From: Paenibacillus stellifer
Lineage (GTDB): Bacteria; Bacillota; Bacilli; Paenibacillales; Paenibacillaceae
DNA: 64,000 nucleotides
Assembly (NCBI RefSeq): GCF_000758685.1
Contig: NZ_CP009286.1
Span: 1,394,501-1,458,500 of the forward strand
Reading direction: 5' to 3'
A program made the position numbers and the translations under genes. This document shows positions 6,985 to 44,706 of this stretch, piece after piece. The notes below the pieces were generated by a model. It was not told where the DNA came from. It saw nothing but the letters and a program-made list of their open reading frames with translations, and searched no databases. The number at the start of each line of letters is the position of its first letter. The stretch's first letter is position 1.

Positions 6985-7013
6985 TTGACAGGATAGAGAT
7001 TGTTCTCTATAAT
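6985..7013 (+). promoter_or_regulatory. perfect consensus sigma-A promoter upstream of the nitrogenase-like operon
   Basis: TTGACA at 6985-6990 and TATAAT at 7008-7013 with exactly 17 bp between them, 24 bp after the fruA stop. Transcription would start near 7020 and run through a ~300-base leader into cysK at 7325, crossing two intrinsic terminators. Confidence 0.85.
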
Positions 7014-7073
7014 CCGTAATAACCATTAAATCCCATTGTAATAATATGAATTGGCATAAGGCTGACCGGTACT

Positions 7074-7122
7074 CCGGAAGCTGGGCCTCCGATGGTTCGG
7101 AGCGCTTGGCTTCCGGTTTTTT
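7074..7122 (+). terminator. intrinsic terminator or attenuator in the leader (first)
   Basis: Outer stem CCGGAAGC (7074-7081) / GCTTCCGG (7109-7116), inner stem CTCCGA/TCGGAG, then six T (7117-7122). It can end readthrough from fruA, but it also lies about 55 nt downstream of the consensus promoter, so it would truncate that transcript unless antiterminated. Confidence 0.85.
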
Positions 7123-7143
7123 GGATTTTGTTCCGGAAATGAT

Positions 7144-7159
7144 TGTGATATTAATCACA
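7144..7159. promoter_or_regulatory. perfect FNR/CRP-type palindrome
   Basis: TGTGATATTAATCACA fits TGTGA-N6-TCACA exactly; the symmetry extends to ATTGTGAT/ATCACAAT (7142-7161). In Bacillus this is the FNR box used for anaerobic activation. I see no clear -10 at the right distance downstream, so its promoter, or a roadblock role within the leader, is undetermined. Confidence 0.65.
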
Positions 7160-7202
7160 ATATTGACCTATGCCTGGCATTACCACGTCAACCAGTTAAC
7201 TG

Positions 7203-7245
7203 GAGGCTTGTTCCGATTTGGCAGAATCGGAGTGGGCCTCTTTTT
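7203..7245 (+). terminator. intrinsic terminator or attenuator in the leader (second)
   Basis: Stem GAGGC (7203-7207) / GCCTC (7236-7240) with inner TCCGATT (7212-7218) / AATCGGA (7225-7231), then five T. It overlaps the 3' end of a 12-bp palindrome CCAGTTAACTGG (7192-7203). It stands 80 nt before cysK with no gene between, so it looks regulatory rather than simply terminal. Confidence 0.8.
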
Positions 7246-7324
7246 AAATCATCGGAAAAGTTAAGCCTGTGCGCTTGCCTTGACTGATGCTGATGAATTT
7301 ACCTGAACCTGGAGGGAACTACTG

Positions 7325-8281
7325 ATGTCAAAAATTGCAAGCAAGCTGACCGATCTGATCGGCAACACTCCTCTTCTGGAATTGAACGGGTACAGCGAAG
7401 AGAAGGGGCTTGGCGCGTCGGTGATCGCGAAGCTCGAATACTTCAACCCGGCAGGGAGTGTCAAAGACCGCATTGGATACGCGATGATCAAGGATGCGGA
7501 GGAACAGGGCCTGATCGGACCGGATACCGTCCTGATTGAGCCGACAAGCGGCAATACGGGCATCGCCCTGGCCTTCGTCGCGGCTGCCCGCGGATACCGG
7601 CTTATCCTGACGATGCCGGATACGATGAGTGAAGAGCGCCGCAATCTGCTGAAGGCGCTGGGAGCGGAGCTTGTGCTTACCCCCGGCGCGGAAGGAATCG
7701 GGGGCTCGGTCCGCAAGGCGGAAGCGCTGGCGGCCATAACTCCAAATTCCTTCGTTCTTCAGCAGTTCAACAATCCGGCCAATCCCAAGATCCACCGCTC
7801 GACGACGGCGGAGGAAATCTGGAAAGACACGGATGGCAAGGTGGATATCTTCGTCGGCGGAGTAGGCACCGGCGGCACGATCACCGGAGTGGGCGAAGTG
7901 CTGAAGGAGCGGAACTCGGACGTCAAGATCGTAGCTGTGGAGCCATTCAATTCTCCGGTGCTCTCGGGCGGCAATCCCGGTCCGCATCAGATTCAGGGAC
8001 TGGGCGCAGGCTTCGTGCCGCAGATTCTGAACCGGGACATCATCGATGAAGTATTCAAGGTGCGGAACGAGGAGGCGCTGGAGACGGCCAGAGACCTGGC
8101 CCGGACCGAGGGGCTGCTCGTTGGCATTTCCTCAGGCGCGGCTGTCTTCGCGGCCGCCCAATTGGCCAAACGCAAGGAGAACCGGGGCAAGAATATTGTA
8201 GTGCTTCTGCCGGATACGGGCGAACGCTATTTATCGACCGTACTGTTCCGGGAGCCTGCCCAGACAGGAGGCGTGTCATGA
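7325..8281 (+). CDS. cysK: cysteine synthase (O-acetylserine sulfhydrylase), first of the nitrogenase-like operon
   Basis: PLP-dependent beta-replacement enzyme of 318 residues that makes cysteine from O-acetylserine and sulfide. It has [10 protein letters not shown] (11-20), the PLP lysine K47 in NPAGSVKDR, the substrate loop PTSGNTG and the phosphate-binding GGVGTGGT. The ATG follows GGAGGG. Its stop overlaps the next start (ATGA, 8278-8281), which couples it translationally to the NifK-like subunit, an unusual pairing suggesting it uses a product of that enzyme. Thiols can replace sulfide in this family, so S-alkylcysteine synthesis is also possible. Confidence 0.93.
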
Positions 8282-9618
8282 GCAAGGTCATCGAAAGACC
8301 GCGTTATGTATGCGCGCTGGGAGGCGCGATCGGCACGATTCAATCGCTGCCAAGAGCGATTCCGATTCTTCATTCCTCATCGGGCTGCGGCGGGAACCTG
8401 GCGGGAGCGCTGAGCGGCGCTTCGGGCTACAACGGAGGCAACTATTGCGGCGGACAGGCGCTGCCGAGCTCCAACGTATCCGAACGCGACATCGTGTTCG
8501 GCGGCGAAGGCCGGCTTGACGAGCAGATCGGCAACACACTGAAGGTGATGGACGGGGATCTGTATTTTGTTGTCACGGGCTGCATGGTTGAGATGATCGG
8601 CGATGATGTCCGGGCGGTAGTCAAGCGCTACAAGAACGGCGACCTGCCGGTGCTGGCAGCGGAGACGGTCAGCTTCAAAGGCAACTCGTATTATGGCTAT
8701 GAGCTGGTGCTGGAGACGCTGTTTCGGGATTTTGTAGAGAAGTCCCCGGTCAAGGATACGGCGACGGTTAATCTCTGGGGGGTAGTCCCCATGCAGGATG
8801 TGTTCTGGAAGGGCAATCTCGGTGTGCTGAAGGGACTGCTCAAGAAGCTCGGCTTCGAGACGAACACCTTCTTCGGTCAGGGAGAGACGCTCGACAACCT
8901 GAAGAAAGCCGGCAGAGCGGTTCTGAACATCGTCGTCTCGGACGCATATGGAATCGAAGCGGCCAAGGTATTCGAAGAAGAACATGGGGTTCCTTACATT
9001 ACCGTTCCGCTTCCGATTGGCGATCACGGAACTTCCCGGTTCCTGCGGACGGTGGGAAGCGCGCTCAGCGTCGATGAAGCCAAGATCGAAACGCTGATCC
9101 ATGAAGAGAGAAAGGCTTATTACCCTTATCTCGAACGGCTCGCGGACGTCTACAACGACCTCGACTTCCAGCGTTATGCGACCGTAGTCGGCGATCCCAA
9201 TTATACGCAGGCGCTGACCCGGTTTCTGGCCGACGATCTCGGCTGGCTCCCGGAGCTGGTCGTCATCACCGACATACTGGCGGATGAACAGAAAGAACGG
9301 GTGCTGTCGACTTTCAGCGGTTATGAATCCGGACTTCGGCCGGAAATTGTATTTGACGAAGACGCGTCCAGCGTAGTAGGCCACATCAACCGTCATTGGC
9401 CGCAGACTAACGGGCAGAAATACTACAAGGGCTTCTCCCCGGGAGTTATCGTCGGCAGCGTAATGGAGCGCGACACGGCCGAGCAATTCAAAGTGCCGCT
9501 GCTGCCGGTGACTTACCCGATCTCCAATCGGGTTGTGCTGAACCGCGCTTATGCCGGCTATTCAGGCGGCTTGACACTCGCAGAGGACGTCTTAAGCCTG
9601 TTGGTCGCTCATCGCTAA
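8278..9618 (+). CDS. nitrogenase component 1-like protein, NifK-type subunit
   Basis: A 446-residue oxidoreductase/nitrogenase component 1 family protein, shorter than true NifK (about 510-520). The three P-cluster cysteines appear to be kept: Cys12 (YVCALGG), Cys37 (SSSGCGGN) and Cys102 ([13 protein letters not shown], compare NifK TTCMAEVIGDD). A fourth Cys57 lies in [20 protein letters not shown], the region matching the NifK segment before VFGG. It probably pairs with the 9752 gene product in an alpha2beta2 enzyme fed by the NifH-like protein. The order K before D is reversed relative to nifHDK. Family assignment is firm; the reaction is unknown. Confidence 0.88.
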
Positions 9619-9751
9619 TTTTTCTCGAAATCGAAATTTTTTAAATACCGGTACTAGCACTTATTAACTTCGCACTTCAATTTAATCATCTATTTCTCGG
9701 TAAACGCCTTGGCGCTTATCGTTGATCCACTTCATAAGGAGGGTGTTATCG

Positions 9752-11290
9752 ATGGATTATATCAAACAGAAGGTGCCGCCGGTTCGCGAGGACCGTCTAA
9801 TGGCATGCCAGGCTTATGGCGGAACTTGCGGCGAGCTGTCGGAGGATTCCAAGAAGGGCTGCCTGTACGCAAGCAAACGCTCCTTCTCCCAAACCCAGGG
9901 CTGCCAGTTGAACTTAAGCCTCGGGATGATCAGCTCGCTCCGTGACGCCGTCATGGTCATTCACAGCCCGATCGGCTGCGGCGGGAATCTGATCCAGAAC
10001 GCCGGAATCAACAAAGTGTTCCAGAAGCTCCGTCAGGAATCGGCGATTGGGCTTCGCTGGATCAACACTAACCTGAGCGAAGTTGATGTCATCAGCGGCG
10101 GTGAAGCCAAGCTGAGACAGGCCGTGCTTAAGGCTGAGCGTGAATTCCGGCCGAGCGCGATTCTGGTGTTCAACAGCTGCGTGCCTGCCTTGATCGGCGA
10201 CGACATTGATGGTATTCTGGACGATCTGCAGAAGCAGGTCACAGCCAAAATCGTTCCGATTCACTGCGAAGGCTTCAAGACCAAAATCCAGGCGACCGCC
10301 TACGACTCCGTCTATCACGGCCTGATCCGGAATCTGGTCGGCGAAGACAAGAGTCTGCAGCCCGCCATCGTGCGCACGCCGGAGGAAGAAGCCGAGCATC
10401 AGGCGAAAATAAGCCGGACCGTCAATCTGCTGAACGTCGGTTCCATGAGCCGGATTGATGAGGAAGAACTGGTCCGTCTGCTGAAGGCGCTCGATCTGAA
10501 TGTAAGAATTCTGCCTTCCTATTCGCATCCGGATGATTTTGTCTATGCGCATGAAGCGGCGCTCAATGTCAGCATTTGCGCTACGCATGATGATTATTTC
10601 GTCGAGCATTTCAAGGAAATGTACGGCATCCCTTACGTGCTTCGTACCATCCCGATCGGCATCGCGAACACGAACAAGTGGCTCCGCGATATCGCTTCAT
10701 TCTTCGGCATCGAAGAACAGACCGAGAAGCTGATCGCAGCCGAAACGGCGGAGCTTGCGAAGGCGCTTGAGCCGTACCGGGAAGAGTTCAAGGGCAAGAC
10801 GGCGTTCCTCACCGGCGGCGAAGTCCGCATTCTGACCACGGCCGAGCTGCTGCATAATCTCGGATTCGAAATTCTGGGCCTGCGGGGCTACCATTTCGAC
10901 AAGTACGGCGAGGTGCTGCTGGACGAATACATGCAGGATGTCCCGGATTCGGAGAAAGCGATCTTCAATATCGGTTCCGGCCAGGTGTTCGAGCAGGCGA
11001 ATCTTCTTCGCAAAATCACTCCGGACCTCTTCGTCGGCCATATTGGCGTGAACGGCTCCGCGGCGAAGCAGGGGTATGCCATCTTCCCGCTGTTCGGCCA
11101 GAGTGATGACTATCTGGGTTACAAAGGCGTGTTCGAGGTGGCAGCCCGGGTTAGCCGGATTCTGAAGAATGCGGCGTTCAACCGGAATCTGGGCGGCAAC
11201 ACGAAGCTGCCTTACCGGGAGAGCTGGTATGAGCAGGACCCGTTCACTTACATCGACGACTCGGCGAAGCTGGCGGCCCGGATCGGTTAA
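9752..11290 (+). CDS. nitrogenase component 1-like protein, NifD-type subunit
   Basis: A 512-residue alpha-type subunit. P-cluster ligands seem intact: Cys51 (QGCQLNLSLG), Cys76 (SPIGCGG), Cys143 (NSCVPALIGDDI). HCEGFK near 171-176 matches NifD CEGFR. Cys276 in LNVSICATHDDYF aligns with the FeMo-co ligand Cys275. The FeMo-co His position appears to be Leu455 in DYLGYKGVFE (NifD has YHGYDGF). Three extra N-terminal cysteines (19, 26, 37) could bind another cluster. ATG 9752 is chosen because AAGGAGGG precedes it. The ~130-base gap before it has no gene. An iron-sulfur cofactor differing from FeMo-co is likely; substrate unknown. Confidence 0.88.
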   Translation: MDYIKQKVPPVREDRLMACQAYGGTCGELSEDSKKGCLYASKRSFSQTQGCQLNLSLGMISSLRDAVMVIHSPIGCGGNLIQNAGINKVFQKLRQESAIGLRWINTNLSEVDVISGGEAKLRQAVLKAEREFRPSAILVFNSCVPALIGDDIDGILDDLQKQVTAKIVPIHCEGFKTKIQATAYDSVYHGLIRNLVGEDKSLQPAIVRTPEEEAEHQAKISRTVNLLNVGSMSRIDEEELVRLLKALDLNVRILPSYSHPDDFVYAHEAALNVSICATHDDYFVEHFKEMYGIPYVLRTIPIGIANTNKWLRDIASFFGIEEQTEKLIAAETAELAKALEPYREEFKGKTAFLTGGEVRILTTAELLHNLGFEILGLRGYHFDKYGEVLLDEYMQDVPDSEKAIFNIGSGQVFEQANLLRKITPDLFVGHIGVNGSAAKQGYAIFPLFGQSDDYLGYKGVFEVAARVSRILKNAAFNRNLGGNTKLPYRESWYEQDPFTYIDDSAKLAARIG

Positions 11291-11321
11291 TCTTTCGGAA
11301 ACAATAGAAAGGAGAATGTAA

Positions 11322-12194
11322 ATGTCCGCGAATGAAGCGAAAATTACGGTGAGCGGGGTAACCCGCCGGTATTCGATCCGTCAGACGAAGGATGGCGGGA
11401 AGCAGCTGTTTACCGCTCTGAGTGATGTGGATTTAAAGGTAGTGCCGGGAGAGTTCCTGACGATTGTAGGACCAAGCGGCTGCGGTAAATCGACGCTGCT
11501 CGATCTCATTGCCGGACTTGCCCATCCGACCGAAGGCGAATTGTTCATCGATGGCAAAAAAATCACGGGTCCCGCGCTCGACAGAGGGATTGTGATGCAG
11601 GGCTACGCCCTTTTTCCGTGGAGAACGGTTCGCCGCAATATCGAGTTCGGGCTTGAAATCAAGAAGGTGCCCAAGAAGGACCGCAAACCGATCGTCGACC
11701 GGTTTCTGGATCTGGTGAACCTGAGCGATTACGGCGACCGCTATCCCTACGAGCTGTCGGGCGGGATGAAGCAGCGGGTCGCAATTGCCAGAGCTCTGGC
11801 TTATGATCCCGAGGTGCTGCTCATGGATGAGCCTTTTGCTGCGGTCGACGCCCAGACCCGGGAGACGCTGCAGGATGAGCTGCTGCGGATATGGGAGCAG
11901 ACCGGGAAGACGATTATCTTCGTCACTCACAGCATCGACGAGGCCGTCGCCCTTGCCGACCGCGTGGTGGTTATGTCGCCGAATCCCGGCAGGGTACGCG
12001 AGATCGTTCCGGTATCGCTGCCCCGGCCCCGCCGCGTAGGCGATGTGCAGTCAACTCCCGACTTCGGCTGGATCAGACACCGGGTCTGGGAGCTGCTGCA
12101 GAATGAGGAATCGGCAGCGAAGCCGGATGTCAAGCCCGCCAAGGCGGCGCAGTTCGAACTGGCGGAGCAGATTTCTTCGTCGGCGGCGCTGTAG
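11322..12194 (+). CDS. ABC transporter ATPase, SsuB/TauB/NrtD type
   Basis: Cytoplasmic ATPase (290 aa) of an importer for sulfonate-, nitrate- or taurine-like solutes. Walker A is GPSGCGKSTLL, the signature LSGGMKQRVAIARAL, Walker B VLLMDEPFAAVD, with the switch His in IIFVTHSIDEA. It has a ~40-residue C-terminal tail rich in Ala and Lys. It sits between the NifD- and NifH-like genes, apart from its permeases (14336, 16348) and binding protein (15271), so transporter and enzyme genes are interleaved in one transcript. Ribosome binding site AAAGGAG. Confidence 0.9.
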   Translation: MSANEAKITVSGVTRRYSIRQTKDGGKQLFTALSDVDLKVVPGEFLTIVGPSGCGKSTLLDLIAGLAHPTEGELFIDGKKITGPALDRGIVMQGYALFPWRTVRRNIEFGLEIKKVPKKDRKPIVDRFLDLVNLSDYGDRYPYELSGGMKQRVAIARALAYDPEVLLMDEPFAAVDAQTRETLQDELLRIWEQTGKTIIFVTHSIDEAVALADRVVVMSPNPGRVREIVPVSLPRPRRVGDVQSTPDFGWIRHRVWELLQNEESAAKPDVKPAKAAQFELAEQISSSAAL

Positions 12195-12409
12195 CAGATG
12201 AGCACAAAACCGGGCCGATGAATCCGGAAGCCTGGAGCGGCGCATAACCGGACCGAAATCCGGAAGATCGGGTTAGGGGCGGATGCGACTTATTATTTTT
12301 GTCTCGATGAGTCAAGACTACTGCGCATAACAGCGAGATAAATGCTGTATGTATCAGGAGAGAATAGGTTGGCGCTAACATGAATTGCAAATAAGAAGGA
12401 GTGCGGATT

Positions 12410-13285
12410 ATGTCAAAAAAACCAAAGCAAATCGCCATTTACGGAAAAGGAGGAATCGGCAAATCGACGACCACCTCGAATATCAGCGCGGCGCTGTCCG
12501 TGGCCGGTTACAAGGTGATGCAGTTCGGCTGCGACCCTAAAAGCGACTCCACCAATACCCTGCGCGGAGGCGAGTATATTCCTACCGTACTCGATACGCT
12601 ACGGGATAAGCAGATTGTTAAAGCCCATGAGGTCATATTCCAGGGATTCAACGGCATCTACTGCGTGGAAGCGGGGGGCCCCGCTCCAGGCGTCGGCTGC
12701 GCGGGCAGAGGGATTATTACCTCCGTTTCGCTTCTGAAGCAGCAGAAAGTGTTCGAAGAGCTGGATCTCGACTATGTGATCTATGATGTTCTGGGCGACG
12801 TGGTCTGCGGCGGCTTTGCCGTTCCGGTCAGAGAAGGAATCGCAGAGCATGTCTTCACGGTTACTTCGGCGGACTTCATGGCGATCTATGCGGCCAACAA
12901 TCTGTTCAAAGGCATTCACAAATACTCCACCGAAGGAGGAGCGCTGCTCGGCGGAGTTATCGCGAACTCGATCAACGCGCCATATGCCCGCGAGATCGTC
13001 GACGATTTCGTGGCCCGTACCCAGACCAAGGTTATGGAATATGTACCGCGTTCGGTGTCGGTAACCCAGGCGGAGCTTCAGGGCAAGACGACGATCGAGG
13101 CGGACCCGGATTCCGAGCAGGCCAAAATCTACAAGTCGCTTGCCCAAAAAATCGCCGACCATACGGAATCGAAGGTTCCGGCTCCTCTGGAGACAGGCGA
13201 GCTGCGAAAGTGGGCGTCCGAGTGGGGCAAGCAGCTGGTGGAATTGGAAGCGCGCCAGAACGCAACCGCAGCCGCCGGCTTGTAG
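12410..13285 (+). CDS. nitrogenase iron protein-like ATPase (NifH type)
   Basis: A 291-residue NifH-family protein, the ATP-driven one-electron donor to component 1. P-loop GKGGIGKST (12-20), the [4Fe-4S] ligands Cys97 (PGVGCAGRG) and Cys133 (DVLGDVVCGGFAVP), and the switch regions match nitrogenase Fe protein closely; Arg100, the ADP-ribosylation site in NifH, is also present. ATG 12410 has AAGGAG upstream. The ~215-base gap before it has a small CCGGA/TCCGG hairpin but no clear promoter or terminator. Being inside this operon makes it the partner of the 8278/9752 proteins rather than of a true nitrogenase. Confidence 0.93.
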   Translation: MSKKPKQIAIYGKGGIGKSTTTSNISAALSVAGYKVMQFGCDPKSDSTNTLRGGEYIPTVLDTLRDKQIVKAHEVIFQGFNGIYCVEAGGPAPGVGCAGRGIITSVSLLKQQKVFEELDLDYVIYDVLGDVVCGGFAVPVREGIAEHVFTVTSADFMAIYAANNLFKGIHKYSTEGGALLGGVIANSINAPYAREIVDDFVARTQTKVMEYVPRSVSVTQAELQGKTTIEADPDSEQAKIYKSLAQKIADHTESKVPAPLETGELRKWASEWGKQLVELEARQNATAAAGL

Positions 13286-13300
13286 GGCGGCGGAAGGCAA

Positions 13301-14254
13301 ATGCGGAGAGGAAGCGGGCTGGTTATGCCGAGGGCGGTGGCAGTCGGCAGTGTGATGGATCTGATCGGCAATACGCCGGCTGTGAAGCTTGGCCGGCTGG
13401 TTCCGGCCAATGCGGCGGACGTGTTCGTGAAGCTGGAGTCGTTCAATCCTTCGGGCAGCGTCAAGGACAGGGCGGCGCACCATATGATTTGCGAAGCGGA
13501 GCTTGCGGGCAAGCTGCGGCCCGGAGGTACCATCATCGAGCCGACCAGCGGCAACACGGGAATCGGAATCGCCATGAACGCCGCTGCGCGGGGGTACTCG
13601 GCTATCATCGTAATGACGGACAATATGAGTCTGGAACGAATCCGGCTTCTGAAAGCCTATGGCGCGGAGGTCGTGCTGACCCCGGCTGCCGATGGCATGA
13701 AGGGAGCGATCGCCAGGGCACGCAAGCTTCATGAGGAAATACCGGGGAGCTTCATGCCGCTGCAATTCGAGAACGGCGCCAACCCGGCCATCCATCGGTT
13801 GACGACGGCTGTCGAGATCGCCGGGCAGATGGAAGGGAGACTGGATGCGTTTGTCGCGGCTGCCGGTACGGGAGGGACGATAACGGGAACAGGTGAGACG
13901 CTTCGCTCCCTGATTCCGGGCGTTTCCATATATGCCGTCGAGCCAAAGGCGTCGCCTGTTCTCTCGGGCGGGAAGCCGGGGACGACGAAGCTGGTTGGGA
14001 CCGGCCCCGGGTTTATTCCCAAGGTGCTGAATACAGGCGTATACGACGATATTGTACAAGTTGAGGATGAAGACGCACTTTCGGTCATGCGGAAGCTTGC
14101 ATGCCGGGAGGGGCTGCTGGTAGGACCATCCTCCGGAGCAGCAGTGTGGGCTGCGCTCCGGATCGCCGTGCAGCTCGGACCTGGCAGAAGGGTACTCTGT
14201 ATCGCCCCCGATACCGGCGAGCGATACTTGAGCCTGGGATATTTCAATGTGTAA
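13301..14254 (+). CDS. second cysteine synthase-family enzyme of the operon
   Basis: A 317-residue PLP enzyme of the CysK/CysM fold with LIGNTPAVKL, PLP lysine K55 (NPSGSVKDR), PTSGNTG and [11 protein letters not shown]. It diverges more from the other two CysK proteins of this window and has an N-terminal extension of about 10 residues, so its substrate may differ (a thiol or another O-acylated amino acid). The start could be ATG 13301 (GGAAGG upstream) or ATG 13325; I kept 13301. It begins 16 nt after nifH-like stops. Confidence 0.88.
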   Translation: MRRGSGLVMPRAVAVGSVMDLIGNTPAVKLGRLVPANAADVFVKLESFNPSGSVKDRAAHHMICEAELAGKLRPGGTIIEPTSGNTGIGIAMNAAARGYSAIIVMTDNMSLERIRLLKAYGAEVVLTPAADGMKGAIARARKLHEEIPGSFMPLQFENGANPAIHRLTTAVEIAGQMEGRLDAFVAAAGTGGTITGTGETLRSLIPGVSIYAVEPKASPVLSGGKPGTTKLVGTGPGFIPKVLNTGVYDDIVQVEDEDALSVMRKLACREGLLVGPSSGAAVWAALRIAVQLGPGRRVLCIAPDTGERYLSLGYFNV

Positions 14255-14335
14255 ATCAGCAATCGGTGCCATGCTGCCGCGTATCGGCTGATGTATTGCG
14301 CTTGGTGATCTCATGCAGGAAAGGAAGTGAAGCAA

Positions 14336-15190
14336 ATGCCGAATGCGGGAGAACCAGCCGGGATACTGGCATCCCGGGGCGGCGCCGTTCACTGTAACGT
14401 CCCGGGAAGGGGGCGCGCTGCGATCATCCGCTTGCGGAGGGCTGCAGAGAAATCCGTGGTCATGCTGGCAGTCGTCCTGCTGTGGGAAGCATTGCCGCGT
14501 CTCGGTCTGGTCGATCCCTTTCTGCTTCCGCCATTCAGCGAAGCGGTCGCAAGCCTGTTTCATTTGTTCCTGACCGGCGAGATGTTCCGGCATATCGCCA
14601 AGAGTCTGGAACGCTCCGGTCTCGCCTTTGCCGCCGCTGCCGTCTTCTCGATTCCGGTCGGCGCGTTCATGGGCTGGAACAAGCGGATTGAGCGAATCAT
14701 CGATCCGCTTATTCAAGCCTGCCGCAATACCTCGACTCTTGCACTGTATCCGGTATTCATTCTGTTCTTCGGTCTGGGCGAAGCCTCCAAGGTTGCGATT
14801 ATTATTTGGGGAACTATATGGCCGATTCTGCTGAATACGATTTCAGGCGTCAAGGAATGTGATCCGCTGCTGATCAAGGCGGCAAGATCCATGGGAGTGC
14901 CGGGCTCCAGTCTATTCAGGCGGGTTATTATTCCGATGGCACTGCCTTCGATCCTCACGGGTCTGAGACTGGGCGCTGCCAACGCGATCCTGATGCTGGT
15001 GGCCGCCGAGATGCTCGGCGCGGACCGGGGGCTGGGCTTCATGATTTTCTATTACCAGGAAAGATACGCCATCCCCGAAATGTTCGGCGGCATTATCTTT
15101 ATTTCGGTATTGGGCGTTCTGATCAACTATGGACTGGTGAAACTGGAGAAATCACTAACCCGTTGGAAGGAGGGAGCGGTCAAAGGGTGA
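14336..15190 (+). CDS. ABC transporter permease, SsuC/TauC type (first)
   Basis: A ~284-residue inner membrane permease with six predicted helices and the EAA loop near SMGVPGSSLFRRVIIPMALP. RNTSTLALYPVFILFFGLGE is typical of sulfonate/nitrate/taurine permeases. Starts ATG 14336 (AAGGAA) or GTG 14327 are both possible. A second, similar permease at 16348 suggests a heterodimeric channel or two importers sharing one ATPase. Confidence 0.88.
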   Translation: MPNAGEPAGILASRGGAVHCNVPGRGRAAIIRLRRAAEKSVVMLAVVLLWEALPRLGLVDPFLLPPFSEAVASLFHLFLTGEMFRHIAKSLERSGLAFAAAAVFSIPVGAFMGWNKRIERIIDPLIQACRNTSTLALYPVFILFFGLGEASKVAIIIWGTIWPILLNTISGVKECDPLLIKAARSMGVPGSSLFRRVIIPMALPSILTGLRLGAANAILMLVAAEMLGADRGLGFMIFYYQERYAIPEMFGGIIFISVLGVLINYGLVKLEKSLTRWKEGAVKG

Positions 15191-15270
15191 ACCTGGCTTT
15201 TTCCGCAACGCCGCAGGTATTTATGAGTAATCCCAACCATTTTGCTGACGAAAAGAGGGATGAAACCACC

Positions 15271-16293
15271 ATGCACCGCCAAAGAAGGAACGGCATTTCT
15301 GCCATCGCATCGCTTATTATTCTTCTTCTAACAACGACAATTATTCTATCTAGTTGCGGCAAGGATTCGGAATCCGCCACAGCGGTTGGAGCGGAAGCCT
15401 CGAAGGAGCCGGATGTGATCCGGCTGCCAACACCGACCAATCTCACCGGAATATCCATCTATTATGTGGCTGAAGAGCTCGGATATGTGAAGGAGGCGGG
15501 ACTTAAGTTTGATTACGTGGGCGCCGTAGAAGCTGGCCAACTGGTGGCATCCGTCGTCGCGGGCAAAATCGATGTAGGGGGCGGTCATATCAACCGGACG
15601 ATTGCCGGAATTAGCGCCGGAGCGAAGATCAAGGCGGTTGTCGCCCAGACGGAAACGACCGAGGAAGTGCCACATATGAGCTTCGTCACGACCAAAGACA
15701 GCCCGATCAAGAGTGCGGCGGATATTGTGGGCAAGAAGGTCGGGATTCCCGCTTTCGGCGGCTGCAACGAATATACGCCTTACGCCTATCTGCTGAAGAA
15801 CGGCATTCAGGAACCCAAGGGGAAATTCGAGATCGTCACCGCGCCCGAGATCAAGCTGGAACAGGCCCTGCTGCAGGGGGATGTCGATATTATCGGACTG
15901 CATGAGAATCCGTCCACCATTATCAAGCGCGGGAATCTCCGGGTCGTCCTCACGGACTATGATATTTGGGGCGACGAGGGCGGCGCCACTCCCCTGTATT
16001 TCTCCACGAAGTTCATTAAGGAGAAGCCGGATGTGGTCCGGCGGTTCGTGGAAGTAATCAGCAAGACCAATGATTATGTCGACGCCAATCCGGACAAAGC
16101 GATCGAGATCACGGCCAAGCGCGGCGATATCGAACCGGGTAAGATCAGAGCCAATCATTTCGCTCCCCACGGAGAAATCAAGAAGGAGACGGTCCAGACC
16201 TGGATCGATCTGCTGTCCCACTTCAAGGAGATCAAGCCCGGGATTAAGCCGGAAGATATCTACACGAACGAGTTCAACGACACGCTCAAGTGA
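15271..16293 (+). CDS. substrate-binding lipoprotein, SsuA/NMT1 type
   Basis: A ~340-residue extracytoplasmic binding protein. ATG 15271 gives a basic N-terminus, a hydrophobic signal and the lipobox LSSC with Cys29 for lipid attachment; ATGs further upstream would spoil the signal. The mature part has the NMT1/THI5-like pattern (YYVAEELGYVKEAGLKFDYV, then a substrate-pocket segment FGGCNEYTPYAYLL). The family binds aliphatic sulfonates, taurine, nitrate, riboflavin or pyrimidine precursors. Its operon partners make an organosulfur ligand the best guess. It sits between the two permease genes. Confidence 0.88.
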   Translation: MHRQRRNGISAIASLIILLLTTTIILSSCGKDSESATAVGAEASKEPDVIRLPTPTNLTGISIYYVAEELGYVKEAGLKFDYVGAVEAGQLVASVVAGKIDVGGGHINRTIAGISAGAKIKAVVAQTETTEEVPHMSFVTTKDSPIKSAADIVGKKVGIPAFGGCNEYTPYAYLLKNGIQEPKGKFEIVTAPEIKLEQALLQGDVDIIGLHENPSTIIKRGNLRVVLTDYDIWGDEGGATPLYFSTKFIKEKPDVVRRFVEVISKTNDYVDANPDKAIEITAKRGDIEPGKIRANHFAPHGEIKKETVQTWIDLLSHFKEIKPGIKPEDIYTNEFNDTLK

Positions 16294-16347
16294 TGCCTTC
16301 AGCTTGCCGGCTTCCGGCTTCGCTGTTGATGGAAAGAGGTGGTCGAG

Positions 16348-17127
16348 GTGATTAAGCGAGCGGCGCGGATCGTATCCGTCTGCGAAAGATGGGTCGCGGT
16401 CGCGGCGGTATGCCTGCTCTGGGAACTGGTCTCGCGCAGCGGTCTCGTGAAGGATTTTATTCTGCCTCCGTTCAGCCGGGTGGCCTACAAGCTGTTCGAT
16501 CTGCTCATCACGGGACAGATCTGGCCGGACATCGGCGCCAGTCTCGAACGGGCCGCTCTCGGGTTCGCGGTATCTGTTCTGGTCGCCCTTCCGCTCGGCT
16601 TCCTGATCGCCTGGTCGGATGTGATTGAACGGGTGCTGGACCCCGCCATGCAGTTCATGCGGAATACGCCGACTTTGGCGCTGTATCCGGTCTTCATCCT
16701 TGTCTTCGGGCTGGGTGAGCTGTCGAAGGTGGCGATCATATTCTGGGGCGCAGTGTGGCCTGTTCTGATGAACACAGTTGAGGGGGTGAGCCGGACCGAT
16801 CCGCTCCTGGTCAAGTCCGGCAGGTCCATGGGGGCTTCACCGCTCACGCTGCTGTTTCGAATCATCCTTCCGTCGGCTCTCCCGTCGATCTTCACAGGCA
16901 TCCGGCTCAGCGCTTCCCGTTCGATCATCATTCTGGTGGCGGCTGAAATGCTTGGCGCCGATAAAGGGCTGGGCTTCCTGATCTTCACCTCCGAGCAGAA
17001 CTACAAGGTAGAGCAAATGTACGCCGGGCTGATTGTTCTGATACTGCTGGGCGTGCTGATCAACATGCTCCTTGTCCGCTGGGAGAAAAGAGCGACGCAT
17101 TGGAAGCAGGAGATTTCAGGGGAATGA
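16348..17127 (+). CDS. ABC transporter permease, SsuC/TauC type (second)
   Basis: A ~259-residue permease with six helices, a close paralogue of the 14336 gene: shared MRNTPTLALYPVFILVFGLGE and the EAA loop SMGASPLTLLFRIILPSALP. I prefer GTG 16348 (AGAGGTGG five bases upstream) over GTG 16339. Together with the binding protein and the ATPase at 11322 it completes an importer. Confidence 0.88.
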   Translation: MIKRAARIVSVCERWVAVAAVCLLWELVSRSGLVKDFILPPFSRVAYKLFDLLITGQIWPDIGASLERAALGFAVSVLVALPLGFLIAWSDVIERVLDPAMQFMRNTPTLALYPVFILVFGLGELSKVAIIFWGAVWPVLMNTVEGVSRTDPLLVKSGRSMGASPLTLLFRIILPSALPSIFTGIRLSASRSIIILVAAEMLGADKGLGFLIFTSEQNYKVEQMYAGLIVLILLGVLINMLLVRWEKRATHWKQEISGE

Positions 17128-17238
17128 GGCCTGTAAGGAGCTGATGGAAGTGCTGCGGTTGGCGGTGTCTGGTTCGGTTTGATCCGGGAAGAAGCATAAT
17201 TGGCTGCAATCAAAAACTAGGATACGAGGTGGATAACC

Positions 17239-19266
17239 ATGCGGATACAAGAGGTAGTTGACGAAAGGCTGCTGGATTCCCTGTCTGGCGGAACCGTAAT
17301 CGGCATCGATATCGGGTCGAGAACGGGCAAGGCGGTGCTGCTGAAAGGAGAGGAGATTTATACAAGCTCGGTCTATACTGGCATCAATATGCAGGACACG
17401 GCCGATGAACTGCTGGAGGATCTGCTGGACAAGTCGGGGCTGACCCGCTCGGAAATCGATTATATCGTGGGAACCGGATATGGCCGGATTGCTCTTCGGT
17501 ATCCCCATATTCCGACCCGGATCGTGACGGAAATTTCATGCCACGCCATGGGCGCGCATTATCTCAATGCGGACGTGCGGACCATTGTGGATATTGGAGG
17601 CCAGGACTCCAAGGCGATCCGGGTAGACCCGTTGACCGGGGGCGTGACCGAATTCGTCATGAACGATAAATGCGCGGCGGGGACGGGGCGGTTCCTGGAG
17701 AAGGTGGCCGAAATTCTGGAGCTGAACATCGATGAGCTGGGACAGGAAGCCGTGCTGGCGGACGAGCCGTCGGAGATTAGCAGCCAGTGTGTCGTGTTCG
17801 CCGAATCGGAGGTCATCTCGCTGCGGGCAAAAGGAGAGACGCGGCGAAATATCGCCGCAGGTATCCATTTCGCTTCGGCGAAGCGGGTCCGCAACCTGCT
17901 CAAGCGGGTTGGAATCGAGCCGGGCCTGATCTTCTCCGGCGGCGTTTCGAACAACGTCGGTATGCGCAAAGCGCTGGAGGACCTGTCCGGTCACCCGCTG
18001 ATTGAAGCGAAGATCGACACGATCTTTGCCGGAGCCTTGGGAGCGGCGATCCATGCCTTGAATGATTCGCGCGCAGCCTTAACTGACAGCGGGGCCCTAT
18101 CAGACGGATTCCGGCTCGATTTATCCGGCGTCGAGAACCGGATCGCGGAGCGTCAGGAGCAGCTTTCGGCCCAGGAGGACGATCACAAGAAGGTGGGCTA
18201 TCTGTGCTCCTATACGCCGCTTGAGATGATCAGCGCTGCCGGCGTCTCCCATATCCGGCTGTTCAAAGCGGGCGACTCCGAGACGGTAGCGAGCGGTGAA
18301 CAGATTACGCAGAGCGTATTTTGCGATTTCACGAAGAGCATCCTCGGCGCTTTCAAGGAGAAAGACCCGCTCTATACATCGCTGGATAAAGTGTACACGT
18401 TCTACACCTGCGATTGCATCAAGACGGTCGGTGAGGCGATCGGCGAGTTTTTTACGCCAACTGACATTTATACCCTTCCCCGCATCAAAGCCAAGCCCTC
18501 TTCGCGAGATTTCTATGGCTCCCAAATTCAGAGCTTCAAGGCCGATCTCGAACAGTTGTCCGGGAACGTGATTACCGAAGGGGAGCTGCGTCTGCAGATC
18601 AGGCAGTACAATGAGGTCCGCCGGCTACTGACTCAAATCTCCGAACTGCGGAAACGTCCTAACCCGCCGCTCACCGGCAAGGATTACCTGGATCTGATCA
18701 AGGCCTTCTATTATTTGCCTGCCGAAGAGCTAATCCCGCTGTACCGGGGCATATATGACAAGCTGTCGGCAGTGCCGGTCCGCGAGGAACGGACGATCCG
18801 TCTGTTCATGGCCGGAGGCATTATTGCCGACGGAGACCGGAAGCTTCTGGAGCTGATCGAGGACGAGCTGGGAGCCCGGATCGTTGCCGAGGATCACTGT
18901 ACCGGACTGAAAATCGCATCCGCCCAAATCGACGAAACGGGCGATCCGTACAAGGCTTTGGCGGAAGGCTATATCGACCAGACGCCTTGCGCCCGGATGA
19001 AGCCGCTGGAAGAGCGGGTGAATATTTCGGGAGCACTTGCGACCGAATATCAGGCGGACGGAATTCTGTACGCCTATCTCAAATTTTGCCCTTGCTACGG
19101 GCAGGTCAAGAATGAGTTCTTCCGGCATTATCAGCAGCTCGGAATTCCCGTGCTTGAATTGCCGATCGACTATTCGAAGAGCGACCAGGGGCAGCTCAAG
19201 ACACGGCTTGAGGCGTTCATCGAGGTGCTGAAGGAACGGAAAGGGCTGGCCGCAGGAGCGGTATGA
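17239..19266 (+). CDS. fusion of BadF/HgdC-type ATPase activator and HgdB-type iron-sulfur domain
   Basis: A 675-residue two-domain protein. Residues 1-275 form an ASKHA ATPase activator: GIDIGSRTGKAVLL, DIGGQDSKAI, and cluster ligands Cys145 (MNDKCAAGTGRF) and Cys184 (SSQCVVFAESEV), which in HgdC bridge a [4Fe-4S] cluster across a homodimer. Residues 315-665 resemble the 2-hydroxyacyl-CoA dehydratase HgdB/HgdC-partner fold and hold Cys323, 362, 391, 393, 554, 584, 617 and 619, more than the three needed for one [4Fe-4S]. That number recalls the six-cysteine double-cubane protein of Carboxydothermus. ATG 17239 has GAGGTGG upstream. Likely drives ATP-dependent low-potential reduction; substrate unknown. 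Confidence 0.85.
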   Translation: MRIQEVVDERLLDSLSGGTVIGIDIGSRTGKAVLLKGEEIYTSSVYTGINMQDTADELLEDLLDKSGLTRSEIDYIVGTGYGRIALRYPHIPTRIVTEISCHAMGAHYLNADVRTIVDIGGQDSKAIRVDPLTGGVTEFVMNDKCAAGTGRFLEKVAEILELNIDELGQEAVLADEPSEISSQCVVFAESEVISLRAKGETRRNIAAGIHFASAKRVRNLLKRVGIEPGLIFSGGVSNNVGMRKALEDLSGHPLIEAKIDTIFAGALGAAIHALNDSRAALTDSGALSDGFRLDLSGVENRIAERQEQLSAQEDDHKKVGYLCSYTPLEMISAAGVSHIRLFKAGDSETVASGEQITQSVFCDFTKSILGAFKEKDPLYTSLDKVYTFYTCDCIKTVGEAIGEFFTPTDIYTLPRIKAKPSSRDFYGSQIQSFKADLEQLSGNVITEGELRLQIRQYNEVRRLLTQISELRKRPNPPLTGKDYLDLIKAFYYLPAEELIPLYRGIYDKLSAVPVREERTIRLFMAGGIIADGDRKLLELIEDELGARIVAEDHCTGLKIASAQIDETGDPYKALAEGYIDQTPCARMKPLEERVNISGALATEYQADGILYAYLKFCPCYGQVKNEFFRHYQQLGIPVLELPIDYSKSDQGQLKTRLEAFIEVLKERKGLAAGAV

Positions 19267-19316
19267 CGCTTGGGCATGGGCGCAACATTTTGATTAACGC
19301 AAGGGAGATGAAGAGC

Positions 19317-20201
19317 ATGAGTGAATGGAAAGAGATCATCGACCCCGAGCTGCTGTCCTCGCTGACGGGGGATATCGCGGTCGGTCTCGATTTGGGGTCC
19401 AGAACGGGTAAGGGCGTGCTGCTGGCCGGAGGCAAGCTCTACACGGCGATTACTCCGACCGGGGTGTATATGCAGGAGACGGCCGACAAGCTGTTGGACA
19501 AGCTGCTTAGACAATCCGGGGTTCCTCGCGAGGAGATCGCCTACATCGTCGGTACAGGATACGGGCGCGTCTCCTTGAATTTCGGCGAAACCGGTCATAA
19601 AATCGTGACCGAAATTTCCTGCCATGCGATGGGTTCCCATTACTTGAACGCCAAGGTTCGGTCCATCGTGGATATCGGCGGCCAGGATTCCAAGGCGATC
19701 CGGGTTGATCCGGCAAACGGCAAGGTTATCGAGTTCATCATGAACGACAAATGCGCGGCCGGAACCGGACGGTTCCTGGAGAAGGTCGCACATCTGCTGG
19801 ATTTGACGCTGGAGGAACTGGGCGCCGAAGCGTTGAAGGCCGATGAGCCGGCGGATGTCAGCAGCCAATGCGTCGTCTTCGCCGAATCCGAAGTGATATC
19901 GCTGAAGGCCAAAGGCGTGTCCGCCGCCAACATCGCCGCCGGCATCCATCTGGCGACAGCGCGCCGGGTCCGCAATCTCGTCAACCGGATCGGGCTTGAG
20001 CCGGATCTGGTGTTCTCGGGCGGGGTCTCGAACAATCCGGGCATGACCCGGGCGCTGGAGGAGCTGCTGGGTCATCCGATCAGCCGGGTGAAGCTGGACA
20101 CGATCTTCGCAGGCGCTCTGGGGGCGGCGGTCTTCGCCCAGAAAGCGGCGTCCCGGGGTGAGAGCGATCTGTCGGACTTTGCCCTCTTGAAAGCCAAATA
20201 A
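19317..20201 (+). CDS. BadF/HgdC-type ATPase activator (archerase)
   Basis: A 294-residue ASKHA ATPase closely similar to the N-terminal half of the preceding fusion: GLDLGSRTGKGVLL, DIGGQDSKAI, Cys146 (MNDKCAAGTGRF) and Cys185 (SSQCVVFAESEV). Such activators hydrolyse ATP to inject one electron at very low potential into an HgdB-type partner. ATG 19317 is preferred because GGGAG lies 9 nt upstream; the frame extends back to an ATG overlapping the fusion stop (19263). The likely partner is the next gene. Confidence 0.88.
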   Translation: MSEWKEIIDPELLSSLTGDIAVGLDLGSRTGKGVLLAGGKLYTAITPTGVYMQETADKLLDKLLRQSGVPREEIAYIVGTGYGRVSLNFGETGHKIVTEISCHAMGSHYLNAKVRSIVDIGGQDSKAIRVDPANGKVIEFIMNDKCAAGTGRFLEKVAHLLDLTLEELGAEALKADEPADVSSQCVVFAESEVISLKAKGVSAANIAAGIHLATARRVRNLVNRIGLEPDLVFSGGVSNNPGMTRALEELLGHPISRVKLDTIFAGALGAAVFAQKAASRGESDLSDFALLKAK

Positions 20202-20231
20202 AAGAGATCATTCCAAGGAGGTCTTACGAAG

Positions 20232-21452
20232 ATGTCGACGGTATTAACGCATGAGGCTCAGGAGCAGCTGAATCATATCCGGCACAGCCGCGACGTTGTG
20301 CACGCTCATTCGCCCGCCATCCAGAAGCTGTTCAATCTGGTCATCGATTATGTGGATGACGCGGAGAGGGCAGGCAAGAACGGAACCAAGGTCATATGGG
20401 CCGGCGTGCCCTGGGCAATGCCCCTGATCTATTCTACCGGAGCCATTCCGGTCGCCTTCTCGGAAATGGGGCGGATCAGCGGCCGGGACGCGATCACGGT
20501 CTCCGAGGACCATTATCAGATGCCGGCCGAGACCTGCTCGATGGTAAAAGCGACGGCGGGGGAATGGTACTTGCGGAAGCAGGCCGGAACCTCGATCACT
20601 CGCATTTTCGGCTCATCCTCCGCCTGCGAGCCCTATAACCTGGCGTGGGAAGTGATGAGAAAGGAAGGCTTCGACGTCTACACCAGCGATATCGTCTATC
20701 GGGCGCCAGGTGTGGAGGGAGAGCGGTACGAGGAGCTGGTCCGGTATTTTATCGAAGAAATCCATGAGTTCAATGAGTGGCTGACGGGCAGCCGTGAGAT
20801 TGACCGGGACAGTCTGCACCGGGAAATTGTCCGCAAGAACCGGATGATGCGCTCCATGCGTGAAATCATGGATTTGCGGCTTCAGCATCCGTTCCATGTC
20901 AAGAGTCTGGGCATTATGTATTTGATGAATGGGCTAACCCATTATTTCGGCAAACCCGAGGAATATCAGGAGGTGCTGGACGCGCTGGTCGGCGAATTGC
21001 AGGGGCTGGATATCAACGAGGAGGAGCGCAGCCAGGCGATTCCGCTGATCTGGACCGGCGGGAACGGCCAGGAATTCGGCATCTATGACGCCATCGACAA
21101 TGCCGGGGGCTCGCTGCTCGGCTTCGTCTCATCGCCGTATGCGAAGGATTACCGCGAGGAGATCGATCCGGTGGAATCACTGGTCCGCTTCCAGCTTGAG
21201 AGCCAGATGGCGGGCGCGTCGATATACCGGCGCGATGTGATTGAACGGCAGGTCGACCGGATCGGGGCGCGGGGCTTGATCTTGTACGGATATTTGGGCT
21301 GCTCCTTCGGAAGCGTGACCCGGGAGATGTACAGAGAGTATTTCCATAACAAAGGCATTCCGAGCATCAACCTGGAGGGGACCTTCCAGGTGGGCGCCGC
21401 CAGCGGACAAATTCTGACCCGGATCAAGGCGTTTATCGAGATGCTGTCCTGA
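20232..21452 (+). CDS. 2-hydroxyacyl-CoA dehydratase-family iron-sulfur protein (HgdB type)
   Basis: A 406-residue HgdB/DUF2229-type subunit with exactly three cysteines, Cys102 (AETCSMVKA), Cys132 (SSACEPYN) and Cys357 (YLGCSFGS), the standard set for one [4Fe-4S] cluster with a free site. AAGGAGG precedes the ATG. Dehydratases of this family are usually two different subunits; here the second could be the C-terminal half of the 17239 fusion. No CoA-transferase or acyl-CoA gene is near, which argues against amino acid fermentation and for a role with the nitrogenase-like enzyme. Last gene of the cluster. Confidence 0.85.
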   Translation: MSTVLTHEAQEQLNHIRHSRDVVHAHSPAIQKLFNLVIDYVDDAERAGKNGTKVIWAGVPWAMPLIYSTGAIPVAFSEMGRISGRDAITVSEDHYQMPAETCSMVKATAGEWYLRKQAGTSITRIFGSSSACEPYNLAWEVMRKEGFDVYTSDIVYRAPGVEGERYEELVRYFIEEIHEFNEWLTGSREIDRDSLHREIVRKNRMMRSMREIMDLRLQHPFHVKSLGIMYLMNGLTHYFGKPEEYQEVLDALVGELQGLDINEEERSQAIPLIWTGGNGQEFGIYDAIDNAGGSLLGFVSSPYAKDYREEIDPVESLVRFQLESQMAGASIYRRDVIERQVDRIGARGLILYGYLGCSFGSVTREMYREYFHNKGIPSINLEGTFQVGAASGQILTRIKAFIEMLS

Positions 21453-41225: not shown

Positions 41226-41228
41226 TGT

Positions 41229-41311
41229 GCGGTAGTGGTGGAATGGCAGACACGCTATCTTGAGGGGGTAGTGGGCGTACGCTCGTGGAGGTTCGAGTCC
41301 TCTCTACCGCA
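41229..41311 (+). tRNA. tRNA-Leu (GAG), copy 1
   Basis: Class II tRNA, acceptor GCGGTAG/CTACCGC, anticodon loop TTGAGGG, long variable arm GGGCGTACGCTC (one G-U pair). No encoded CCA. Starts four bases after the tRNA-Glu 3' repeat. Confidence 0.95.
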
Positions 41312-41345
41312 TTCTAGCAACACGCATTATAGCAACAATAGAGAA

Positions 41346-44623: not shown

Positions 44624-44706
44624 GCGGTAGTGGTGGAATGGCAGACACGCTATCTTGAGGGGGTAGTGGGCGTACGCCCGTGGAGGTTCGAGTCCTCTCT
44701 ACCGCA
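44624..44706 (+). tRNA. tRNA-Leu (GAG), copy 2
   Basis: Identical to copy 1 at 41229 over 83 bases except one position in the variable arm (GGGCGTACGCCC, fully paired here). Its own promoter and terminator flank it. Confidence 0.95.

Follow-up and report, generated by a model that had tools for sequence, protein, structure and literature searches.

What does a bacterium gain from a nitrogenase-like enzyme whose genes lie among genes for cysteine synthase? The question is raised by an operon of the soil bacterium Paenibacillus stellifer located in a 64,000-nucleotide window (forward-strand positions 1394501-1458500 within a single 5.66-Mb contig; the window is the whole stretch that was analysed, and the coordinates given below are positions in it unless otherwise stated). 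The original prediction described twelve same-strand genes at 7325-21452 and, in fact, all twelve open reading frames (ORFs) were found, intact and on the + strand. From the gene content, the clade and ligand residues of the enzyme, its linkage to other genes, and an RNA element that covaries and is shared among leaders, we arrive at a reading in which, as a whole, we have reasonable but incomplete confidence: the operon would encode a member of the nitrogenase superfamily that reduces C-S bonds anaerobically at the expense of ATP, feeds cysteine synthase (CysK) and is gated by RNA.

The catalytic core consists of three subunits, K, D and H. K (8278..9618, + strand, as for all the genes described here) and D (9752..11290; the ORF has a listed TTG start at 9722, but the feature is taken from 9752) match PF00148 with about 240 bits each, and their top matches among solved structures are subunits of methylthio-alkane reductase (Mar), namely MarK (9d9u/9fmg, 292 bits, the next structure scoring 89) and MarD (212 bits, the next scoring 121). 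The reductase subunit H (approximately 12410..13285) passes the nifH NCBIfam cut-off (422 vs 394 bits), yet its nearest solved relative is also a Mar subunit (MarH, 9fmg_D, 508 bits, next 281). The genes for cysteine synthase, cysK1 (7325..8281) and cysK2 (13301..14254), encode proteins that exceed the NCBIfam cysK cut-off, with 471 and 415 bits, respectively, for TIGR01139 (cut-off 351). It had been claimed that the Fe-S cysteine motifs are intact, and D and K indeed keep their P-cluster cysteines; the cysteines of the BadF/HgdB proteins, encoded at the end of the operon, are kept as well. The signature residues in the alignment place the cofactor ligands of D at Cys274 and His428 (510-aa numbering of A1).

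Are D and K, then, simply another Mar? The Arg428-His429 loop and the Trp195 pocket are named as a hallmark of Mar (PMC12552129). The P-cluster cysteines and the cofactor cysteine (Cys270) of Mar are present in the window proteins, as is the Mar-type histidine (His429). By contrast, the pocket of window D has Gln at 195 instead of Trp and Tyr at 199 instead of Phe, and Arg428 is absent, the alignment having a gap there and a Gly before the His. Wherever its rows are of full length, the window clade has Tyr199, Cys270, His375 and His429 and lacks Arg428 (at the end of the D alignment, L052, L086 and L096 have rows that are incomplete or impossible to read), while residue 195 is Met, Gln or Val and, rarely, Ser, Pro or Trp. 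In a tree of 44 D rows, from which L022 and 17 other loci were omitted, in which CfbD and Bch sequences are absent, and whose groups were named following a first quick tree, 27 rows belong to the window clade and 14 to the Mar group, and each of these two groups makes up one side of a branch, with support of 99/99 and 100/99. Given the loss of Arg428, the Gln at 195 and the branch outside Mar, plain Mar membership was rejected. Nif, Vnf or Anf membership was rejected as well, as the score of D is far under the cut-off (139.5 vs 653.5 bits for nifD) and the residues at the His442 and His195 positions of the Nif pocket differ; the Nif Gln191 position holds a Gln in window D. The best score against the DPOR, COR and CfbD families was that of K with DPOR_BchB, far under the cut-off (114 vs 490 bits). 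On the evidence of tree and signatures, DK form a separate branch that neighbours Mar and does not belong to Nif, Anf or Isr. Of the points that the original prediction put up for checking, a clade of its own was supported, but consistent linkage to badF/hgdB was not (see below).

The genome itself offers a useful comparison, with 18 matches to PF00148 that correspond to a Nif set, a second nitrogenase set that is read from its layout as Anf/Vnf-type, and five nitrogenase-like DK pairs including that of the window. The five D proteins are clearly distinct by their signature residues. The D of locus L021 has the complete MarD signature (Trp195, Phe199, His375, Arg428-His429 and Cys270), and those of L019 and L020, loci that carry importers or metY/POR, are Mar-like, with the Trp, the Phe and the Arg-His. 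The D of L022, which adjoins a radical SAM gene, lacks the P-cluster and cofactor cysteines, like IsrD. The cofactor cysteine (Cys275) is present in four of the five D types in our alignment, which differs from the statement in PMC4246453 that it is not conserved in the NifD-like proteins. In other genomes, many nitrogenase-like DK pairs are found inside some tens of kilobases (L181, L184 and L187 in G494; L178 and L182 in G007). The IsrBHDK system of R. capsulatus, with its SsuCAB importer, resembles the window operon in joining a nitrogenase-like enzyme to a sulfonate-type importer for sulfur assimilation, but IsrD is described as having a single P-cluster cysteine, two being lost together with the cofactor cysteine, and no cofactor ligands (PMC11423573), whereas window D has all of these ligands. 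Consequently, Isr membership was rejected, and it is L022, a separate locus, that fits Isr, with its radical SAM gene.

The clade of the window, which is found in many anaerobes including termite-gut spirochaetes, is probably the Group IV-A or Nfa set (NfaHDK of E. proavitum and P. riograndensis, NflDK1 of Heliophilum), as judged from published descriptions and from neighbouring genes. IV-A genes are reported to sit in or near corrinoid methyltransferase clusters (PMC10418091), and the loci studied here share such neighbours: URO-D-type methyltransferases are near 10 and corrinoid proteins near 9 of 81 sources (the window and 80 relatives). The NfaDK of E. proavitum has been assigned to subgroup IV-A and treated as a nitrogenase, while the role of that of P. 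riograndensis is described as unknown (PMC9147875). No Endomicrobium was named among the matches listed in our protein searches, including the best 120 of a Treponema query.

The genes around D suggest the role of the enzyme. Of 521 stretches of genome contigs matched by pattern, 511 encode relatives, and the best 80 were retained, which favours close kin. The ORF families counted in the resulting 81 sources were cysK (57), ABC ATPase (53), permease (45), short NifB-like radical SAM (42), NMT1 binding protein (41), H (39), NifX-like (24) and Cys/Met-PLP of the metY/cystathionine type (15), followed by BadF-HgdB (8), HgdB (6) and BadF (5); all these counts are lower bounds, as some genes were uncalled (the window's own H included) and many contigs are short. 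In this set of close kin, 38 loci have at least 9.5 kb on either side, and 33 of them show a cysK gene (250 bits) no more than 10 kb away. A broader sample comprised 398 genomes from the phylum of G007, with at most three candidates scored per genome. Fourteen of these genomes hold a window-clade D of at least 498 bits, and regions of about 9 kb per side, where the contig permits, were taken around 20 of the 24 listed matches. At 250 bits or more, cysK was found in 12 of the 20 regions (9 of 14 genomes) but in none of 11 Mar-type regions (the genome's own three and eight others, in 8 genomes) and in none of 14 Nif/Anf regions (its own two and twelve others), so that the linkage to cysK originally proposed was upheld. 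By genome, Fisher tests of the contrast give p 0.006 against Mar-type and p 0.0006 against Nif/Anf regions. On the other hand, metY-type genes are near 6 of the 11 Mar-type regions and 3 of the 20 window-clade regions.

As this linkage is absent, at the same score, near D of the Nif and Mar types, and as importers of the NMT1/Ssu type are frequent around the window clade, a sulfur role for the operon is likely. The idea is not new for such enzymes: as early as 2012, nitrogenase-like genes with Cys275 were reported to adjoin cysteine synthase or O-acetylhomoserine sulfhydrylase, and other such genes to adjoin ABC transporters (PMC3464626). Additionally, a cysteine synthase is reported to accompany a spirochaete nifKD (PMC13067680). 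The arrangement is also stable within the genus. Window-type D was found in 12 of 100 Paenibacillus genomes (one more has a Mar-like match only), with the ATPase gene after D in all 12 and cysK before K in 11, and the recurrence of cysK-K-D-ATPase in those 11 indicates that the operon is not a chance assembly. Among the 10 carriers with enough sequence, the window included, 7 have the BadF/HgdB module, and 5 have the permeases and the binding protein.

These observations bear on the possibility that the operon encodes just another methylthio-alkane reductase, releasing methanethiol. MarHDK (R. rubrum) are its nearest solved relatives by a wide margin, but the separate branch and the different pocket point elsewhere. 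Furthermore, the window has K before D and no B gene in the operon, cysK and importer genes rather than metY are nearby, and a D protein showing the complete MarD signature is already encoded at L021 of this genome. We thus consider this explanation unlikely. Since Mar makes methanethiol, whereas the window clade is paired with cysK, we infer that the product is sulfide or a thiol that CysK can use.

How the operon might be regulated is suggested by its leader (7060-7248), located upstream of cysK1 and outside the region originally delimited. A candidate sigma-A-type promoter (TTGACA-17-TATAAT, 6985..7013, + strand), proposed from its match to the consensus at 12 of 12 positions, is followed by a first attenuator copy (7060..7128, +; 22.3 bits with R2 and 24.1 with R1, the covariance models described below), in which a GGCUGA-CCGG..CCGG-AAGCU hairpin runs into a terminator. 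Then comes an exact TGTGA-N6-TCACA palindrome (7144..7159, +), which we take to be an Fnr/CRP-type site from the Fnr consensus, and whose half-sites are invariant in all nine aligned Paenibacillus leaders. The second attenuator copy (7186..7248, +; R1 54.9 and R2 28.6 bits) has a core at 7186-7212 overlapping a terminator at 7202-7241, shows covariation, and has a fold z of -3.55; the leaders of relatives gave no strong structure when folded, but their ends were badly placed. The attenuator is a hairpin of 25 nt, and its 3′ strand is also used by the terminator, as the 5′ arm. Sharing this strand makes the two structures mutually exclusive, so the element could turn transcription on or off.

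The second hairpin, written as a pattern with up to three mismatches, has two sites in the genome, the one described here and another about 100 nt upstream of a nifB at 3.535 Mb, but a reversed-pattern control also gave two matches and, thus, the count alone proves nothing. A covariance model, R1, was therefore built from 12 leaders (that of the window being one of them); it contains the hairpin stem P1 and part of the terminator, so its matches favour both. At E<=1, R1 gave 88 matches in 87 sources, 81 in 52 others. In the P. stellifer genome, these include the leaders of nifB and of a binding-protein gene at L019, that of the nifX-metY operon of L020 (whose metY scores 487 vs 495 bits), and, at L022, a site before a gene that is metK-like by eye and is followed by the Isr-like genes. 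A weak match in L017 is on the nifB strand, approximately 1.6 kb upstream of nifB and with an opposite gene between. Neither the Treponema loci nor twelve Nif regions (L203-L214) gave any R1 match. Across Bacillota, Myxococcota and Thermodesulfobacteriota, attenuators precede cysK, nitrogenase-like (NFL), nifB-like, metY and ABC genes, and these target genes make it likely that the element responds to a sulfur signal. Two loci deserve mention in their own right. L078, of Geomesophilobacter sediminis, has eight matches (E<=1) in 21.5 kb, the most of any locus scanned with R1, and they precede cysK, ABC and unknown genes; in L195, an attenuator (5193-5252) is followed by a stretch that is SAM-I riboswitch-like by eye and then by a metY-like gene.

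It may be argued that the leader contains just two ordinary terminators and a DNA palindrome, given that terminators, with their hairpin and T-run, are common between operons and that R1 itself favours matches of this kind. For this reason, 59 cores from 37 sources, picked by hand from the R1 matches and with near copies removed, were analysed. Their consensus is AGYYGA-[4 bp, loop 4 or 5]-AGRCU; pairs form in 93.6% of the cells, compared with at most 52% in slid versions, and 57 cells are doubly changed, compared with 18.8 in shuffles (none of 500 as high). The P0 stem provides a stricter comparison, as it is not in R1. Although its outermost pair fails in 26 of the 59 rows, the three pairs inside it are present in 56, 59 and 59 rows and are doubly changed in 3, 7 and 0, respectively. 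The 3′ strand of P0 begins a terminator in 52 of the 59 cores but at only 577 of 18,905 AGRY sites in the same loci, and this strand, common to hairpin and terminator, covaries with both partners. A core-only model, R2, which was trained partly on some of the regions it scored, reaches at least 24 bits in 15 of 19 window-clade regions and in one of 14 Nif/Anf regions (L017), and a terminator is recognised by a strict rule in 24 of 31 of those matches. An independent text descriptor gave counts above the shuffle mean in Bacillota NFL loci (38 vs 9.5), the phylum sample (29 vs 6.7) and three delta/Myxo loci (5 vs 0.8), but not in Nif regions (4 vs 4.5) or Treponema (1 vs 4.7); in 14 Paenibacillus sources it found 10, which is not above the highest of six shuffles, and the second core of the window fails its strict P0 rule. 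Taken together, these results leave plain terminators as an improbable explanation. The attenuator is absent from Rfam as searched: at the gathering score, no family was found at the leader in the window and 49 loci, where only tRNAs, PYLIS, a c-di-AMP riboswitch and group II introns appeared elsewhere, and a permissive search of 7100-7345 gave chance matches only.

Could the enzyme, instead, be a minor nitrogenase, with IV-A enzymes reducing N2 and cysK supplying cysteine for Fe-S clusters? The 15N2 incorporation of E. proavitum and the Heliophilum proposal (PMC9147875) favour this explanation, as does the retention of the cofactor and P-cluster cysteines. However, the window clade has Met, Gln or Val at the Gln191 position, Tyr at that of His195 and a different loop at that of His442. 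Nif and a second nitrogenase set are already encoded in the genome, and cysK is missing, at 250 bits, from the 14 Nif/Anf regions. In P. sabinae T27, the five nifD-like and two nifH-like genes are reported neither to complement Klebsiella nif mutants (a test of little power if the cofactor of the enzyme differs) nor to respond to ammonium or oxygen (PMC4246453). The genome that we take to be this strain (G078) has three nifH and two nif-like H genes, matching that report, and carries the operon without the permeases and the binding protein.

The supply of cofactor is also informative in this respect. A NifB-like match (E 0.001) was obtained in all 29 carrier genomes searched, above the cut-off in 19, while nifD was above the cut-off in 14. 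Seven of the 29 (G002, G003, G009, G010, G014, G018 and G019) have no nifD match above 170 bits, and the NifB-like matches of these same seven are of 253-310 bits, under the cut-off; such sub-cut-off matches also occur in 5 of 14 control genomes. As the carriers lacking nifD still have NifB-like matches, the system seems to need a NifB-like protein and not a canonical nitrogenase. With this added to the residues, the neighbours and the P. sabinae results, we regard the nitrogenase explanation as decidedly improbable. The P. stellifer genome has two nitrogenase-like H genes, in the window and at L022, so that several DK pairs may depend on the H of the window. A further explanation, which we consider very improbable, is that the substrates are compounds of selenium, arsenic or metals, with CysK or the unit resembling double-cubane cluster protein (DCCP) handling selenide or similar. 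In its favour, double-cubane ('dicubane') proteins are provisionally tied to selenium, and IV-A genes are linked with methyltransferase clusters (PMC10418091). Against it, these clusters are of the non-selenium type, family searches recognised no Se-specific gene among the twelve of the operon, and at other loci cysK, metY, metA and a sulfite reductase-like gene are among the neighbours.

The C-S reductase reading can be stated as a sequence of steps. Nitrogenase-like enzymes are known to perform C-S and sulfonate chemistry (PMC12552129, PMC11423573). In our proposal, the NMT1/Ssu-type importer would bring an organosulfur compound into the cell, and H would hand electrons to DK, which would hold the P-cluster and, presumably, a NifB-made [Fe8S9C] cofactor bound by Cys274 and His428. 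NifB function would come from a nifB located elsewhere, most likely that at ~3.535 Mb, which bears the same leader. C-S reduction would yield sulfide or a thiol that O-acetylserine can capture, rather than methanethiol, and CysK would put it into cysteine. Transcription would be gated by the RNA hairpin, through the strand that it shares with the terminator. The substrate and the ligand of the switch are, like the switching itself, conjectural parts of this scheme.

Several observations weigh against it. E. proavitum is reported to have a IV-A enzyme, to lack other nif-like genes and to incorporate 15N2 (PMC9147875). An approximately unbiased (AU) test does not reject a tree in which true Mar and the window clade are joined, apart from other Mar-like sequences (p 0.056). 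Eight of the 20 regions of the phylum sample (5 of 14 genomes) lack cysK and, if the threshold is lowered to 200 bits, cysK-like genes appear in 2 of the 11 Mar-type regions (217 and 228 bits), with a p of 0.057 for the contrast by region; CysK could, moreover, serve Fe-S assembly instead. The permeases and the binding protein are missing from 5 of the 10 Paenibacillus genomes with long enough sequence. Two of the carriers lacking nifD (G009 and G019) have NifH of 416-428 bits, and their sequences may be incomplete. Regarding regulation, the true Mar locus L021 has no R1 match, Rfam found neither a SAM riboswitch nor a T-box in 49 loci, six of them the genome's own clusters, and an Fnr-type box is at odds with the lack of oxygen response reported for P. 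sabinae (PMC4246453), whose leader shares the box.

The importer consists of an ATPase of the Nrt/Ssu/Tau type (11322..12194), two permeases (14327..15190 and 16339..17127, both PF00528) and an NMT1/SsuA-like binding lipoprotein (ORF 15163..16293, the real start probably being downstream of 15163; PF09084, 95 bits). An importer is thus present, as predicted, but its description as Ssu/Tau-type goes further than the family matches, which are all under the cut-offs for aliphatic sulfonates and taurine (SsuA_fam 92 vs 163.5 bits; TauC 156 vs 342). A PDB search with the binding lipoprotein, made for clues to its ligand, gave only THI5/ThiY-like proteins and others named loosely as binding proteins.

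The operon ends with a BadF-HgdB fusion, in which an activase is joined to a double-cubane-like subunit (17239..19266; PF01869 and PF06050, that is, BcrAD_BadFG and HGD-D), followed by a BadF activase (19263..20201; PF01869, 192 bits) and an HgdB subunit with three cysteines, C102, C132 and C357 (20232..21452; PF06050, 128 bits). The two HGD-D genes are the only ones of the genome. Their domains are those of DCCP and of benzoyl-CoA reductase/2-hydroxyacyl-CoA dehydratase, and six cysteines of DCCP have aligned counterparts in the fusion. Unlike those systems, the activase is fused to the subunit, the score is under the double_cubane cut-off (NF040772, 230 vs 350 bits), and the partner HgdB has only three cysteines. 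In seven fusions, which come from Bacillota and a single locus of Myxococcota, the eight HGD-D cysteines are separated by the same distances, with one extra in L033 and L052. The module had been expected to be consistently linked to the enzyme as its electron system. However, it is present in 7 of 10 Paenibacillus genomes and the fusion at 6 of 80 loci at 400 bits (the eight sources of the ORF family include the window and a weak member of 30% identity, L034), so a role as a conserved DK partner was rejected. With the fusion as the query, 2 of the 398 genomes matched: G274, with a window-clade D about 15 kb away on the same contig, and G436, where no D reached the cut-off applied but a weak K-like stretch (77 bits) is about 20 kb off. 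An electron system is, thus, unproved, as the module can stand apart and keeps catalytic-type cysteines of its own. It may be a second and independent reductase, driven by ATP and of the double-cubane/dehydratase type, that is optional and answers the same need for sulfur, recurrent rather than conserved. In G274 (L141), a single same-strand run includes the fusion, an importer, cysK, metA, a metK-like gene (by eye) and a small sulfite reductase-like protein (under the cut-off), and NFL H, X and B are also near; a complete desulfonation pathway is possible there.

Elsewhere in the window, downstream of the operon, there is a third cysK above the cut-off (44911-45807; genome 1439411-1440307), and ARAGORN called two tRNA-Leu(gag) (41228-41312 and 44624-44706) that Rfam did not list at the gathering score.

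A wider claim, which we put forward tentatively and hold at somewhat less than even chances, is that IV-A enzymes are sulfide-releasing C-S reductases that feed CysK, and not nitrogenases, and that the 25-nt attenuator (AGCUGA-stem-AGGC), possibly a sulfur-metabolite riboswitch, controls an anaerobic organosulfur regulon in Bacillota, Myxococcota and Thermodesulfobacteriota that includes NFL enzymes, their NifB, cysK, metY and importers. If true, those additional nifB genes with which Paenibacillus does not fix N2 would be sulfur genes. This could explain nifB3 and nifB4, which are reported to be useless for N2 fixation and have been suggested to be pseudogenes (PMC8287671). Some genes of the window clade have been counted as nitrogen fixers, and a sulfur role would alter surveys of nif genes and change our view of the origins of nitrogenase cofactors. 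In addition, the RNA switch would serve as a marker for unknown organosulfur reductases and as a handle on what the cells sense.

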